Shown here piece after piece: positions 4,646-19,119 of a stretch of 22,297 nucleotides of DNA; the first letter of the stretch is position 1, and each line of letters starts with the position of its first letter. The position numbers were made by a program, and so were the translations under genes. Below the pieces are notes generated by a model that was given only the letters and a program-made list of their open reading frames with translations, was not told the origin of the DNA and made no database searches. The stretch spans positions 1 through 22,297 of IMG/VR virus record IMGVR_UViG_3300027851_000135; one strand, written 5' to 3'. This stretch comes from a virus.

Positions 4646-5242
4646 TTAAATCAAATAATGATTTCGTTTGGCTCGGTTATCTGCTTTAGGTATTACTTGC
4701 AAATTTGTAGGAACGTGCAATCCTGAAACATTTTCACCGCGTAGTGGAAGTATGTGATCAACTTCCCAAACAAAACCAAACATCTCGGTTCGCAGTTTAG
4801 CAAGTTTATACGCTTCACGCATCATCCATCGATCATCCGATGTAAGCCATTTTGGCACACGTTTGGCTCGTCTGGCAACACTTGCAACAGCAAGTGATGT
4901 GTATGTTGCCGGATTTTTAGCAATCCATCGTTTACGCTTAGCTGTCACTTTATCTGGATTAGCTTTTTCCCATGCCTTTTGATCAGATTTAACCTTGTCT
5001 TTGTTGGCAGCTTGCCATCGTTTTACACGGATTCCGTGAAGTTCTCGATTATTTTCTAACCATTTTCGCATCGACTGCGAATACTTTTCTGGGTTTTCAA
5101 TACGCCACGCTACTGACTGAAGTTTGGTACATTCTACGCATTTTGCGCCTTTAACATACCGATCTGCAAAATGACCTCGTTTACACGGCTTACCCGTGTT
5201 ATATCTATCTAGTCCGAGGTTTTTTGCTTCTTTTCGTTTCAC
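4646..5242 (-). CDS. HNH homing endonuclease with N-terminal zinc-finger motif
   Basis: 198 aa. Residues 20-38 hold C20-x3-H24 and C35-x2-C38, a likely zinc site found at the N-terminus of a group of phage HNH proteins. Residues about 50-120 are Lys/Arg/Trp-rich helical repeats (NPEKYSQSMRKWLENN, NKDKVKSDQKAWEKANPDKV) likely to bind DNA. The HNH nuclease lies at about 158-195: WEVDHILPLRG, then LHVPTNLQVIPKADNRAKRN. These are free-standing selfish endonucleases that cut alleles lacking the insertion. Translation starts at GTG (5242) inside a GTGA overlap with the upstream gene's stop. It is inserted between the DUF5856-like gene and the tail block and is more AT-rich than its upstream neighbours. 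Confidence 0.87.
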   Translation of the reverse strand: MKRKEAKNLGLDRYNTGKPCKRGHFADRYVKGAKCVECTKLQSVAWRIENPEKYSQSMRKWLENNRELHGIRVKRWQAANKDKVKSDQKAWEKANPDKVTAKRKRWIAKNPATYTSLAVASVARRAKRVPKWLTSDDRWMMREAYKLAKLRTEMFGFVWEVDHILPLRGENVSGLHVPTNLQVIPKADNRAKRNHYLI

Positions 5243-9697: not shown

Positions 9698-10195
9698 TTA
9701 AACTCCTGGTCTGTGAGTATGATACTCGGAAAGTGCGGATTGTCTGACTTTTACAGCATCTTCGATTGTTGAAAACGTACCCAGATAGATATTTTTTCCG
9801 TGTACCTTAATCTGTGCTTGCCATTTTTGATTGGCTTTATGCCATGTCACACCTTTATGCCCACTGGTGTTGTGTGAAAACCATGCAATGTTTTGCTTGT
9901 TTTCACTAGAGTCAACCTCACGCAGGTTACTTATTCGATTGTTGTGTTTGCATTGATCGATATGGTCAATCTCTGTAGGCCACGCGCCATGCACATACAA
10001 CCACGCCAATCGATGAGCTTTATACAATCTTCGATCCAGCATGATATTGACATATCGATCAGGTTCAGCGTGACCGGCAATAGATCCAGCTAATGCTTTT
10101 GATCCCCTCGTGTGTATCCAAGTAAACACACCAGTCTCAGGATCATAGTCCAATAATTCTTTAAGACGGTCTTGCGATATAATGTTGTCAGCCAT
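9698..10195 (-). CDS. HNH homing endonuclease with AP2 DNA-binding domain
   Basis: 165 aa from the ATG at 10195 (GGAG 6 bases ahead). The frame also allows an ATG at 10207, which has no ribosome site. Residues 55-100 carry the HNH signature (YKAHRLAWLYVHG, EIDHIDQCKHNNRISNLREV). Residues 112-160 form an AP2-type DNA-binding domain (GHKGVTWHKANQKWQAQIKV, then IYLGTFSTIEDAV). This architecture is typical of free-standing phage homing endonucleases. It sits between small and large terminase, and its last codons contain the ribosome site that feeds the TTG start of terL. A strong hairpin (10221-10255) separates it from the small terminase gene. Confidence 0.9.
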   Translation of the reverse strand: MADNIISQDRLKELLDYDPETGVFTWIHTRGSKALAGSIAGHAEPDRYVNIMLDRRLYKAHRLAWLYVHGAWPTEIDHIDQCKHNNRISNLREVDSSENKQNIAWFSHNTSGHKGVTWHKANQKWQAQIKVHGKNIYLGTFSTIEDAVKVRQSALSEYHTHRPGV

Positions 10196-10220
10196 TTGAT
10201 GCTCCATTCATCAGTGGTTA

Positions 10221-10776: not shown

Positions 10777-10788
10777 TGAACGTGCTTC

Positions 10789-10817
10789 TATGTATCACAT
10801 CGGCAAGTAAGATGCAA
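10789..10817 (-). promoter_or_regulatory. Candidate leftward promoter before small terminase
   Basis: On the minus strand TTGCAT (10817-10812), a 17-bp spacer and TACATA (10794-10789) form a sigma70-like promoter with an extended -10 (TGA before TACATA). A CACAATGTG palindrome (10833-10841) lies 15 bases upstream of its -35. The predicted RNA start is only about 6 bases before the first terS ATG, so it would suit one of the internal starts or be leaderless. Confidence 0.35.
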
Positions 10818-10850
10818 GTGAGTTAGGTGATTCACAATGTGTAAATGTGT

Positions 10851-10880
10851 CATTTGAAAAAAATAATAAAATTTTCTTGG
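10851..10880. other. AT-rich tract beside the repeat arrays
   Basis: Thirty bases made almost entirely of A and T (runs AAAAAAAATAATAAAATTTT) stand out in an otherwise balanced region, just left of the decamer array. This could be a duplex-unwinding element if the region is an origin, or an UP-element-like or bent segment near the leftward promoter. Confidence 0.4.
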
Positions 10881-11030
10881 GGTACCTTACTGCCATTTTC
10901 CCATTTCCCTCGGACCCACCCCACCCCTTAATCAGGAATCCGGATTTTCCCAGCTTCACGTTGTCACAGTTGTCACAGTCACCACAACTAGGCGGATCAC
11001 TTGTCACAGTAGACAATGTGAACCATGTGA

Positions 11031-11090
11031 CCATGTGACCATGACCAATACACAATGTGACCATGTGACCATGACCAATACACAATGTGA
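11031..11090. repeat. Perfect 30-bp tandem duplication
   Basis: Bases 11031-11060 and 11061-11090 are identical. Each unit runs CCATGTGACC, ATGACCAATA, CACAATGTGA. Partial units flank both sides: AACCATGTGA before and ACCAATG after. Each unit contains one exact CACAATGTG palindrome. The sequence looks like recent unequal expansion of a binding-site array. Confidence 0.9.
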
Positions 11091-11139
11091 ACCAATGAAT
11101 TAGCACACATTGTGAGCAGGGGCAAACTGTGACAACTGT

Positions 11140-11166
11140 CCCTCCGCAGGCGAGGGGGGTGTTTTT
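11140..11166 (+). terminator. Candidate rho-independent terminator in the control region
   Basis: CCCTC/GAGGG stem (11140-11144 with 11152-11156), 7-base loop, then GGGTG and six T residues (11161-11166). It would stop plus-strand RNA before it enters the early promoter region. The stem is only 5 bp, although all but one pair are GC. Confidence 0.35.
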
Positions 11167-11367
11167 TGATACTTACCGCGATATTTCTCAAAAGTGGATA
11201 CCCCCGATTTCAGTCACACTTGTCACAGTTGATCATCACGCACAGTCTGACAATGTGATACATTGACAAGGTGAAAAGGGTAAACCCCATCGTATTAAAC
11301 CCTGAGCTCAGATCATTTTTCACATTGTGGAATGTAGATTATTTTCACTTTGTGGTGCAAAATAGTG

Positions 11368-11395
11368 TTGACAATGTGAAAACAGGTGCTACAAT
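11368..11395 (+). promoter_or_regulatory. Main rightward early promoter overlapped by operators
   Basis: Perfect -35 TTGACA (11368-11373), 16-bp spacer and -10 TACAAT (11390-11395). Both boxes are embedded in palindrome-like sites (GACAATGTG 11370-11378, TACAATGTG 11390-11398), so a protein bound there would block RNA polymerase. RNA should start near 11402, giving a leader of about 40 bases before the first early gene at 11442. Confidence 0.75.
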
Positions 11396-11441
11396 GTGAA
11401 TCATGCAGTCAGGTAACAGTCAATCAACTAGGAGCAACAAA

Positions 11442-11552
11442 ATGAATCCACTAACCAAACGTGCCACGCACAATGTAAACCGTGAAAACAATTTAATCGC
11501 CTGGGGTTCTGGTGTAGTGCTTGCCGCCCTTGTTATCGCTTTCCTTCTGTAA
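11442..11552 (+). CDS. 36-aa single-pass membrane peptide
   Basis: The first early gene after the promoter. MNPLTKRATHNVNRENNLIA is a polar, net-positive N-terminus, followed by WGSGVVLAALVIAFLL, a 16-residue hydrophobic segment that reaches the C-terminus. This looks like a tail-anchored inner-membrane miniprotein. A good AGGAG ribosome site lies 8 bases before the ATG. No family is recognised. Roles such as host takeover, superinfection control or lysis timing are possible, but nothing here selects among them. Confidence 0.65.
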   Translation: MNPLTKRATHNVNRENNLIAWGSGVVLAALVIAFLL

Positions 11553-11571
11553 TCGTTAGGAGTAATTAATC

Positions 11572-11844
11572 ATGCAACGTATCACTAATGCCCAACTGCA
11601 TTGCCTTGTCGCATATCTTAACAAACTAACCAATAGTCCTGCCGAATACATGGGCGCGGACCGTCGCACAAACGTGGATCATTATTGCCTAAGCTTTGCT
11701 TATGGTGGTGCCGAGTTGCAGCGCGTCTGTAACGAATCCGGTGGCGTGCGTGACGTATTGCATACCGGCCATACCACAAAGCGCGATTTGTTCAATCAAA
11801 TCCATTCATTCATTCGCGGCATTGAATCGCAACAAGGGGCATGA
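11572..11844 (+). CDS. Conserved hypothetical early phage protein
   Basis: 90 aa with a pattern seen in many phage early regions: TNAQLHCLVAYLNKLTNSP near the start, HYCLSFAYGGAELQRVCNES in the middle and KRDLFNQIHSFIRGIES at the end. The family has no established function that I know of. AGGAG lies 9 bases before the ATG. The stop overlaps the next possible start (ATGA). Confidence 0.75.
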   Translation: MQRITNAQLHCLVAYLNKLTNSPAEYMGADRRTNVDHYCLSFAYGGAELQRVCNESGGVRDVLHTGHTTKRDLFNQIHSFIRGIESQQGA

Positions 11845-11846
11845 TC

Positions 11847-12059
11847 ATGGCGCACGTTAAAAAACTTACACTTTGCAACAATCACGGATATCTGACGCAC
11901 GCGGAAAACTGCCAATGCGACAAAGCGCACCATTACACAAAGTTTGCCGTATTCGGTACAGACTACGGCCACCTGCACAACACCTCAGGCGATATGCGCC
12001 TATGGTCTAGCTATTCTGGCGCTTATGCCGCTGCACGCAAATATCAAGGGAGCAAATAA
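11847..12059 (+). CDS. Small Cys/His-containing early protein, unknown
   Basis: 70 aa from the ATG at 11847. An ATG at 11841 is in frame, but AAGGGG is 7 bases from the second and only 1 from the first, so the second is preferred. The N-terminal half has C-x2-NHGY and C-x-C (LCNNHGYLTHAENCQCDKAH), which could bind metal. The C-terminus (YSGAYAAARKYQ) is helical. I recognise no family. It is part of the early gene chain. Confidence 0.6.
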   Translation: MAHVKKLTLCNNHGYLTHAENCQCDKAHHYTKFAVFGTDYGHLHNTSGDMRLWSSYSGAYAAARKYQGSK

Positions 12060-12060
12060 A

Positions 12061-12549
12061 ATGACAAACTTTGTACAAATTCAATCGGGTAACTTCCGCG
12101 CATTAGTGCGCCCTGAAAACCTGGCAAAGCGTGAAGCGCTACTGGCTAAAGTTAAACCCGGCTATAAGTTACCGGCCCCGCGTGAAATGGCCCGGACTTA
12201 TCCAACGTATAAACCCGGCATGAGCACGCTTGAATATGTGCGTGCGTTCGAGAAGGCCAACAATATGCGTTACCCCCAGCACCTGGGGATGGTTAGCCCA
12301 TACGAACGCCTTAACGCGGCCCCGGCGACACAATACGACCCAACGGTCCCGCTATGCGTAGAAGATGCTAACCCGGACTATGTGCCGGGCCTGGACGATG
12401 CACCGGTTAAACCTAAGCGCACCAAGAAAGCAGCAAAGGTAATGCCAGATAAGTCTGCCGTAATGTGGCTGCTAATGGATCACGGCCTCACAATGTACCA
12501 AGCCGATCCACTGGCTGATAAGCTAATCGCATTGTTTAAAGGGGAATGA
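12061..12549 (+). CDS. Early protein of unknown function, basic linker
   Basis: 162 aa starting MTNFVQIQSGNFRALVRPEN, with AAGGGAGC 8 bases ahead. The frame is open further upstream, but that stretch overlaps the previous gene. Residues 20-90 are basic and Pro-rich. Residues about 115-130 are a Lys-rich linker (KPKRTKKAAKVMP). Residues 130-162 form a small amphipathic domain (AVMWLLMDHGLTMYQADPLA). The layout suggests a nucleic-acid or protein-binding adaptor, but no family is recognised. Confidence 0.6.
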   Translation: MTNFVQIQSGNFRALVRPENLAKREALLAKVKPGYKLPAPREMARTYPTYKPGMSTLEYVRAFEKANNMRYPQHLGMVSPYERLNAAPATQYDPTVPLCVEDANPDYVPGLDDAPVKPKRTKKAAKVMPDKSAVMWLLMDHGLTMYQADPLADKLIALFKGE

Positions 12550-12551
12550 TC

Positions 12552-12791
12552 ATGCAAGGATTTAAGGCATACGCATTAGGATGCAGTGCTATGGCAACAA
12601 CGCCAAAAGACGCAGCAATTAAGTTTTTCACAATGTACCCAACAAAACGTAAATGTGACGTTATCGCGGGAGAATCTAACAATGGGTTTTTTACTGTTAC
12701 TTATGGCCGCGCCAGTGTTGGCGAATGGCCCCAGTTTTACAAAGCAGTGACAAAGAAAACCGCCAACGCTTTGCCTGGGGGTGACGCATGA
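12552..12791 (+). CDS. Small early protein of unknown function
   Basis: 79 aa beginning MQGFKAYALGCSAMATTPKD. Middle segments (AIKFFTMYPTKRKCDVIAG, GFFTVTYGRASVGEWPQFYK) suggest a compact alpha/beta fold. An in-frame ATG at 12546 overlaps the previous stop. AAGGGG sits 7 bases before 12552, so that start is preferred. The stop overlaps the next start (ATGA at 12788). Confidence 0.6.
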   Translation: MQGFKAYALGCSAMATTPKDAAIKFFTMYPTKRKCDVIAGESNNGFFTVTYGRASVGEWPQFYKAVTKKTANALPGGDA

Positions 12792-12961
12792 ACCGGATAG
12801 ATGAATTGGCCCTTAGTTTGTCACTGCTATCCGATGATGATATGAGCAGGTTAGCCCTCACTTTGTGGATGCGTTACCCGCGCACCTGTAGAAGCATAAT
12901 CAATGAAACGCAGCTTGCGGAGAATCTGCTAACCGCACCAACTGATCAAGGGGGTCAATGA
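12788..12961 (+). CDS. 57-aa acidic/helical early protein
   Basis: MNRIDELALSLSLLSDDDMS begins a mostly helical 57-residue protein with LALTLWMRYP in the middle and TQLAENLLTAPTDQGGQ at the end. It is coupled to the preceding gene by an ATGA overlap, and its stop overlaps the next tiny gene. The tail codons contain the AAGGGGG that could serve as that gene's ribosome site. Function unknown. Confidence 0.5.
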   Translation: MNRIDELALSLSLLSDDDMSRLALTLWMRYPRTCRSIINETQLAENLLTAPTDQGGQ

Positions 12962-13020
12962 TGATTGCCGCACTAGCTGCCCTTGCAGCGTTTCTTTTAT
13001 CAATCGTTTTGAAGGTGTAA
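12958..13020 (+). CDS. 19-20 aa transmembrane micropeptide
   Basis: ATGs at 12958 and 12961 both open a frame encoding (M)MIAALAALAAFLLSIVLKV, almost entirely hydrophobic and long enough for a single membrane crossing. AAGGGGG (12949-12955) lies 2 or 5 bases ahead, which favours the second ATG. It is too short to prove by sequence alone, but the perfect fit between two coupled neighbours and the similarity in type to the 36-aa peptide at 11442 support it. Confidence 0.4.
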   Translation: MMIAALAALAAFLLSIVLKV

Positions 13021-13022
13021 TC

Positions 13023-13130
13023 ATGCAGCGTATTTCAAAAAGAGAATGGCTTGGACTTGGTGGTATATCTAGCCCAAGAACTGCTAGGAAAATGATTTCT
13101 GGCAAATGGTTTTATTATCGTATTGACTAA
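13023..13130 (+). CDS. 35-aa basic early peptide
   Basis: MQRISKREWLGLGGISSPRT begins a 35-aa basic peptide ending MISGKWFYYRID. GAAGGTG precedes the ATG at a normal distance. The short helix-turn-like segment (WLGLGGISSPRTARKMI) recalls small DNA-binding or excisionase-like peptides, but that is a weak resemblance. It lies directly before the Cro-like regulator. Confidence 0.45.
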   Translation: MQRISKREWLGLGGISSPRTARKMISGKWFYYRID

Positions 13131-13140
13131 AGGAATCATT

Positions 13141-13368
13141 ATGACCACGGAATTATCTAAAGCCGCTTTTATCCTATCGTACCAGGACCGACACAATATA
13201 ACCGATGATAAACTGTGCGACTTGTTAGGCGTTACTAAGTCGGCCTTATATAGCTGGAAAACGGGGGCGCGTGCCCCTAGTACGTCAGCGCACCGCATCG
13301 TCACGTTATTATCGCTATTAGAGACGCTTGCGCCTGATATTCATAGCTACATGGCGGGTAAGCCCTGA
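13141..13368 (+). CDS. Cro/XRE-like helix-turn-helix regulator
   Basis: 75 aa from the ATG at 13141 (AAAGGA 7 bases ahead; a longer open frame upstream overlaps the preceding peptide and lacks a ribosome site). Residues 21-42 (TDDKLCDLLGVTKSALYSWK) form a clear helix-turn-helix of the Cro/CI or YdaS-like type, followed by two helices (AHRIVTLLSLLETLAP). It is the last gene of the early operon and is followed by a terminator. It is the leading candidate to bind the CACAWTGTG array at the operon's own promoter, giving negative feedback. That link is an inference. Confidence 0.75.
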   Translation: MTTELSKAAFILSYQDRHNITDDKLCDLLGVTKSALYSWKTGARAPSTSAHRIVTLLSLLETLAPDIHSYMAGKP

Positions 13369-18501: not shown

Positions 18502-18555
18502 GGGGTGGCGTCGATCAACTAACTGGAGATCGTGCACGGGAAATGCAGCCACCCC
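18502..18555 (+). ncRNA. Predicted three-way-junction RNA element
   Basis: All three helices pair perfectly. P1 is GGGGTGGC (18502-18509) with GCCACCCC (18548-18555). P2 is CGATC (18512-18516) with GATCG (18528-18532). P3 is TGCA (18533-18536) with TGCA (18544-18547). P2, P3 and the closing strand of P1 abut without spare bases, leaving only GT unpaired in the junction, which looks designed rather than random. A short T-containing tail (ATCTTTT) follows P1, so it may act as a terminator or stability element. It matches no riboswitch or ribozyme core I know. It lies in the gap between the single-stranded DNA-binding gene and the HNH gene. Confidence 0.5.
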
Positions 18556-18576
18556 ATCTTTTGTAAAGTAAATGTT

Positions 18577-19119
18577 ATGTCAACTAGATCAGAATCTGAT
18601 AAAACATATTATCAAAAAAACCGCGAAGCACGACTTCAGTGGCAGCGGGAATATTATCAAAAGAATCGTGAAAAACGGCAGCAGTCTATTAAAAAATATG
18701 ACGCTGCCAATCTTGAACGATTAATCGAGTATCGCAAAGAATATCGAAAAATCAATGCTACGGAACTAAATCATAAAAAACGTGAATACATAAAAAAGAA
18801 GTATTCTGTAGATCCACTTTCTCGATTTAAAAAACGAATCCGTACATTGATTTACACCAAATTAAAGAATCAAGGATATACCAAACGATCTAAGACGTTT
18901 GAGATTCTTGGCTGTGAATACAATGAATTTCTTGAACACATCTCGTCTAAATTTTCTGATGGTATGTCTTGGGAAAATCATGGTGAATGGCATCTTGATC
19001 ATATTGTTCCAGTTGCTATTGCTAAGACTGAAGAAGAAGTTATTCGATTGAATCATTACACTAACTTTCAACCTTTGTGGGCTATTGATAATCTTCGCAA
19101 GGGTGTGAACTATGTCTAA
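18577..19119 (+). CDS. HNH homing endonuclease (third in window)
   Basis: 180 aa from the ATG at 18577. Residues 1-90 are a highly charged Lys/Arg/Tyr-rich helical region (KTYYQKNREARLQWQREYYQ and similar repeats) likely to grip DNA. The nuclease part has FEILGCEYNEFLEHISSKF, GEWHLDHIVPVA and HYTNFQPLWAIDNLRKG, the standard phage HNH layout. An upstream in-frame GTG (18532) is poorly spaced from its GGAG (3 bases) and lies inside the predicted RNA fold, so 18577 is preferred, although its own ribosome site is weak. The gene is AT-rich and its stop overlaps the DNA polymerase start by 8 bases. Confidence 0.87.
   Translation: MSTRSESDKTYYQKNREARLQWQREYYQKNREKRQQSIKKYDAANLERLIEYRKEYRKINATELNHKKREYIKKKYSVDPLSRFKKRIRTLIYTKLKNQGYTKRSKTFEILGCEYNEFLEHISSKFSDGMSWENHGEWHLDHIVPVAIAKTEEEVIRLNHYTNFQPLWAIDNLRKGVNYV

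Follow-up and report, generated by a model that had tools for sequence, protein, structure and literature searches.

A Cro-like regulator and a promoter-embedded operator array predicted to time early and late transcription in a family of aquatic phages

The early genes of the freshwater-type phage described here appear to be driven by a promoter whose −35 and −10 boxes are each built into a palindromic operator. The explanation that best accounts for the observations as a whole (probability roughly 0.7) is that a Cro-like protein shuts this operator-embedded promoter off and probably also aids the start of late transcription. The case is built from sequence: the promoter, the sites, their conservation and register among relatives, a switch of operator class and helical phasing upstream of the late promoter.

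The window, that is, the whole stretch of DNA analysed, is an entire IMG/VR virus record of 22,297 bases. Its left side reads leftward and encodes a P22-type portal, a scaffold, an Sf6-type small terminase and the large terminase; its right side holds a small early gene cluster (11442–13368) followed by replication genes for a primase/helicase with Prim-Pol and DUF3987 domains, an exonuclease, a single-strand-binding protein and a family B polymerase. A gap of 666 bp (10777–11442) separates the two divergent transcription units, the leftward terminase and late genes and the rightward early operon.

Early promoter boxes lie within predicted operators

The early promoter (11368–11395, plus strand) consists of TTGACA (11368–11373) and TACAAT (11390–11395), which are separated by 16 bp; it includes an extended TG and matches 11 of 12 consensus bases. 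A predicted operator, GACAATGTG (11370–11378, plus strand, centre 11374), is fused to the −35 box and another, TACAATGTG (11390–11398, plus strand, centre 11394), to the −10 box, exactly 20 bp apart from centre to centre. The initial annotation had described both boxes as fused to palindrome-like sites 20 bases apart, and its coordinates were confirmed. When 10777–11442 was shuffled 2,000 times with dinucleotides preserved, an equally good promoter arose 20 times and a composite with both boxes inside such sites never did. Each promoter site deviates by one base from the perfect palindrome CACAnTGTG, and in each the deviating base is the one that the promoter requires (C to G yields TTGACA, C to T yields TACAAT), which is the expected look of a sequence under two demands.

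Relatives keep this arrangement. The same promoter position and boxes occur in L037–L041, and in L038–L041 the composite stands at the same place with a spacer of 17 bp, so that the operators are 21 bp apart (16 and 20 bp in the window). Among distinct clade members the −35 operator is kept in 6/6 and the −10 operator in 5/6; L042 and L043 retain the −35 operator and have a −10 box, TACACT, that carries none. The segment 11368–11398 is most likely the main early promoter of this phage. The first open reading frame downstream of it (11442–11552, plus strand), an unlisted one, encodes 36 amino acids with one predicted membrane segment (MNPLTKRATHNVNRENNLIAWGSGVVLAALVIAFLL) and has an AGGAG ribosome site at 11430. 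Homologues of it are visible in L038, L039 and L041, and comparable small membrane peptides are encoded near the start of the early cluster in several relatives.

Operator-like sites across the divergent gap

The composite promoter–operator proposed by the initial annotation stands, with its architecture kept in the clade, but as a picture of the region it was incomplete, covering only 2 of about 13 sites and omitting all others, including one upstream of the opposing late promoter. About 11–13 CACAnTGTG-like sites lie in the gap and just past it, two of which make up the early promoter boxes. Within the gap and the following 36 bases, 13 places differ by at most one mismatch from CACAnTGTG (centres 10837, 11016, 11055, 11085, 11110, 11127, 11245, 11253, 11325, 11350, 11374, 11394 and 11473), those centred at 11127 and 11245 perhaps by chance. 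Exact copies of ACAATGTGA number 7 in the gap (dinucleotide shuffles: mean 0.04, maximum 2) and copies with at most one mismatch number 17 (mean 0.80, maximum 5), and the shuffles therefore rule out chance repeats. Across the whole window there are 24 matches where 8.5 are expected, the majority within 10832–11478. The site is best written as CACAnTGTG within TTCACAnTGTGAA.

Immediately upstream of the early promoter, two further predicted operators are spaced in steps of 24–25 bp, in the window as in L038–L040: a perfect palindrome, CACATTGTG (11321–11329, centre 11325), lies 25 bp from the next site, CACTTTGTG (11346–11354, centre 11350), which lies 24 bp from the −35 operator. The −35 operator sequence, GACAATGTG, recurs on the plus strand at 11249–11257 (centre 11253), and a cluster of predicted operators occupies 11012–11114 (centres 11016, 11055, 11085 and 11110), partly inside a 30-bp tandem duplication (11022–11081). 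Tandem duplication carrying operator copies is a likely way for the array to grow; one relative, L022, has about five 40-bp repeats, each with an operator of the CCCA class described below. A further operator-like sequence, CACAATGTA (11469–11477, plus strand, centre 11473), falls inside the first early reading frame and is kept in L038 and L039, where its conservation may reflect coding. Most operators sit mid-gap and are left unexplained by promoter occlusion.

Operator classes and promoter register among relatives

IMG/VR holds at least 590 relatives by large terminase (TerL); our comparison set comprised 117 distinct gaps collected with terminase and Cro queries. Palindromes were ranked without bias by counting each of the 256 odd palindromes of 9 bases. 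CACAnTGTG came out on top within the window's clade, CCCAnTGGG among almost all distant relatives, and one or the other ranked first in most of the 117 gaps and in nearly every Cro-carrying genome. The CCCA-class operator has the consensus TAACCCAnTGGGTTA (963 sites) and can be written TAACC-n5-GGTTA, with the half-site spacing of the MqsA site TAACCTnnnAGGTTA.

For each gap, the best plus-strand promoter was chosen blind to operators and retained at a score of at least 10.5, giving 76 genomes. These early promoters overlapped an operator in 69/76, where random placement within the array predicts 28.3, counts that, like the phasing counts given later, come from related phages. The register differs between the classes. 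In 62 CCCA-class genomes the operator centre lies 16 to 18 bases after the start of the −35 box (for example TTGACAccttgACCCAATGGGTTATAAT), so that its right arm abuts the −10 box; in the window's clade it lies at +6 in 6/6, with an additional operator at +26 or +27 in 5/6. The window's clade has therefore moved from one spacer operator to one operator per box, or the reverse.

Other palindromes form arrays in further relatives. Phages that have no Cro-like gene carry 10–20 copies of TGGCAATATTGCCA in the same gap, adjoining the small terminase (L063, L066–L068, L071, L077, L081, L083, L086, L091, L097, L101 and L119), and the listed reading frames of two of them, L086 and L068, yielded no obvious helix–turn–helix (HTH) gene as a candidate regulator. 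In the GC-rich L062, L064, L065, L075, L084, L108 and L122, an array of GCCGnCGGC exceeds the shuffled expectation, with up to 30 copies in L084.

A Cro-like protein as the predicted operator ligand

The proposed ligand is a 75-residue XRE/HTH protein encoded at the far end of the early cluster (13141–13368, plus strand). Its matches to Pfam HTH_3 and Phage_CI_repr fall below cut-off and those to PHROG HTH families are weak, but the AlphaFold model (pLDDT 91.4) has helices at residues 3–17, 22–29, 33–41, 48–63 and 65–72, with 33–41 as the recognition helix, and is confidently assigned to a five-helix XRE fold of the Cro/CI type (XRE, HTH_3). By sequence, its closest relative of solved structure is MqsA (E = 9e-5, low identity). 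Foldseek returned no match below E = 0.001; the best hits above that value were XRE proteins, and the MqsA C-terminal domain gave a TM-score of 0.61–0.67 (E above 0.001).

The arrays track this protein. A Cro homologue was found in the flanks of 103/117 distinct gaps, many of the remainder being short fragments that end before the gene, and Cro-carrying genomes show C(A/C)CAnTG arrays. In a first set based on TerL, 25/25 genomes with a Cro homologue had a CACA or CCCA array, and relatives lacking the homologue over more than 4.3 kb of searched sequence had neither, many carrying the TGGCAATATTGCCA array instead. Recognition-helix residues also change with the operator. Position 38 is K in 97/97 CCCA-class proteins and A or S in 6/6 CACA-class proteins, and position 34 is F, Y, H, P or A in 97/97 and S in 6/6, respectively; on the TerL tree, the CACA/CCCA switch amounts to about one event, as does gain or loss of the homologue, so the correlation does not comprise many independent pieces of evidence, and a test of independent origins adds no force to it. 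Positions 34 and 38 align with N97 and R101 of MqsA, through which that protein is reported to read TAACCTnnnAGGTTA (PMC4901048; PMC4894380). A reading code would predict this pattern, in which a basic residue goes with GG in the site and is lacking where the site reads TG. We consider it highly probable, from this co-variation, that the Cro-like protein binds the operators.

The initial annotation had read the promoter as autoregulated by the Cro-like gene at the end of the same operon. As to the ligand, the arrays and recognition residues support this, but the phased late site described below suggests more than autorepression. As to the operon, the palindromic operators overlap the promoter of the transcription unit predicted to hold the regulator gene, and a shared transcript is likely. 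A common operon is plausible because the sequence immediately before the Cro-like gene yielded no promoter-like site, but the gene is preceded by a gap of 180 bp that contains two weak hairpins resembling terminators.

Helical phasing upstream of the late promoter

A candidate late promoter, TTGCAT-17-TACATA with a TGTGA extended −10 (10789–10817, minus strand), reads into the terminase and structural genes. This is a match to consensus whose −35 is weak; a stronger TTGACA-17-TACATA occupies the same place in L038, L040 and L042. In most genomes a minus-strand promoter directly precedes the terminase gene, its −10 extended and its −35 often poor. The window's late −10 lies only 13–18 bases from the annotated small-terminase (TerS) ATG, and an inner Met (10761 or 10752) is therefore the probable TerS start.

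Upstream of this promoter, the predicted operator CACAATGTG (10833–10841, centre 10837) lies 43 bp from the −10. Across 106 of these related genomes, distances from operator centre to late −10 cluster at 32–33, 42–44 and 52–54 bp with almost nothing between. With the late −10 fixed at 69–70 nt from the TerS start (n = 53), 14 fall at 32–33, 23 at 42–44, 16 at 52–53 and 0 between. The best period is 10.0–10.5 bp, with a mean resultant length R of 0.77 at 10.25–10.5 bp after removal of similar spacers (n = 42), a value reached by 0/20,000 jittered sets. Both operator classes share these phases, the window's clade at 32–33 and 42–43. When the distance to a site changes in whole turns of the helix, the protein bound there usually has to face RNA polymerase, and the phasing upstream of the late promoter thus suggests activation; at slightly better than even odds, we favour the reading that the Cro-like protein activates late transcription.

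At the start of infection, host sigma70 RNA polymerase would transcribe the early genes from 11368–11395, and the Cro-like protein would build up from its gene (13141–13368) at the far end of the cluster. Dimers on the −35 and −10 operators, which lie on one face of the helix because they are 20 bp or about two turns apart, would then occlude polymerase and turn the early operon off; this repression we regard as likely. The same protein, bound upstream of the divergent terminase and late promoter, would probably contact polymerase and help late transcription to start.

Plain negative autoregulation, in which the Cro-like protein only represses early and late promoters and the late phasing reflects contact-dependent repression or looping, is the strongest alternative, though an unlikely one. 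Small Cro proteins usually just repress. Looping would fit the weak 10.5-bp component in the late-to-early operator distance (R = 0.29) and the weaker phase between first and second operators (R = 0.40 for all, 0.25 for distinct values); there is no helical phase between second and third (R = 0.08). MqsA represses csgD through a site located 78 bp ahead of the start (PMC4894380). However, phase relative to the late −10 (R = 0.77–0.79) is far stronger than that between operators, the late sites lie about 45, 55 or 65 bp upstream of the presumed late start beside a usually poor −35, as activator sites do, and, unlike the early sites, they leave the promoter boxes uncovered.

Replication-origin and host-factor explanations

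Alternatively, the gap could contain a replication origin, with the repeats as its iterons or initiator sites and the promoter overlap secondary, and some features have that look: about 13 short intergenic repeats are clustered, partly in the 30-bp tandem duplication, and a second conserved repeat, TTGTCACAGT, borders a conserved block in the same gap. This is improbable, as it is the Cro-like helix that operator class follows, the replication proteins being common to both classes (the primase is 58–97% identical), and the register to both promoters is held to a base or a helical turn. The second repeat, TTGTCACAGT or ACTGTGACAA, is found at 10960–10979, 11125–11139 and 11213–11229 of the window, and the block it borders, TGTCCCTCCGCAGGCGAGG followed by AGTCACACTTGTCACAGT, recurs in nearly all relatives read, of both operator classes; this is a candidate replication origin or packaging site.

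Binding by a host factor such as a CRP-like regulator, or by another phage protein, is very improbable: the sites contain TGTGA and TCACA, the CRP half-site words, but in inverted orientation (TCACA-n-TGTGA against TGTGA-n6-TCACA), which rules out a CRP-like site, and sister phages have a different palindrome at the same places, the classes going with whether the Cro-like protein is present and with its recognition residues.

Comparison with known regulatory systems

A close parallel in logic is protein p4 of phi29, an early protein that binds several sites between divergent early and late promoters (A2b/A2c and A3), overlapping the early −35 boxes and rescuing a late promoter with a poor −35 (PMC3100819). 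The placement of the predicted sites at both promoters matches the p4 layout, but p4 has a fold of its own and works together with p6, whereas the candidate regulator here is XRE/Cro-like, both promoter boxes are made of operator sites in the window's clade, and activation is inferred from site placement.

The lambdoid Cro/CI systems (lambda OR, P22, 434) share with the predicted arrangement a small HTH dimer, palindromic operators over an early promoter and autoregulation of the protein's own operon. The proposed switch also resembles CI in its logic, since CI represses PR and, from a site immediately ahead of PRM, activates that promoter. The window's phage differs in having about 13 sites instead of three plus three, in enclosing both promoter boxes within operators, and in that neither an integrase nor a second, CI-type HTH_3 protein was found.

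The antitoxin MqsA (E. coli YgiT) represses its own expression from TAACCTnnnAGGTTA, whose half-site spacing matches that of the CCCA-class operator; the phage protein, at 75 residues, has only the HTH domain and not the N-terminal, toxin-binding zinc domain. No MqsR family hit was obtained among the neighbouring reading frames tested, and no adjacent toxin gene was recognized. The stoperators of mycobacteriophage L5 (PMC9283540) are likewise many copies of a repressor site that differ between relatives in the manner of specificity groups, but they are asymmetric, bound by monomers, oriented with transcription and spread genome-wide; palindromic sites clustered in one control region rule out a stoperator system here.

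Lifestyle and significance

This phage appears to be virulent. Its nearest annotated relative, Phage DSL-LC05, is a 37.6-kb lake phage predicted to be virulent (PMC10611076). No match to integrase family PF00589 was found in 13 records, most of 36–40 kb and near-complete ones included; in 25 records no genome gave more than a single HTH_3 hit; and among 84,980 cellular genomes scanned by terminase, no close prophage came up apart from one MAG contig at 73% TerL identity. On present evidence the region is therefore not a lysogeny module, and a prophage immunity region of lambdoid type is rejected because these records yielded neither an integrase nor a CI-type partner, although uncultured phages may hide surprises about lifestyle.

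Cro-type autoregulation and operator–promoter overlap are well known; for the family-wide version, with operators on both boxes, a phased late site, class-specific pairs and apparently virulent phages, we found no description in the open-access literature. That a single 75-residue Cro-type protein works a two-way switch throughout a large, apparently virulent, podovirus-like family with diverging specificity classes is a claim we make tentatively, at a little under even odds. It offers a testable model of how an abundant and mostly uncultured aquatic phage family could schedule early and late transcription using the host's polymerase and a single very small protein, and more than 100 natural versions in two operator classes allow direct tests of promoter–operator trade-off, recognition-helix specificity and face-of-helix activation. 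If it holds, the operator–protein pair splits into specificity classes like the immunity groups of temperate phages, though lysogeny genes were not found. Cro-type arrays that diversify where lysogeny is not evident raise the question of why specificity classes arise with no prophage immunity to escape.

Other features of the window

A free-standing HNH endonuclease gene (9698–10207) lies between the small and large terminase genes. It is missing from the close relatives L038–L040 and is therefore probably a recent homing insertion. Further HNH genes are located at 4646–5242 and 18532–19119.
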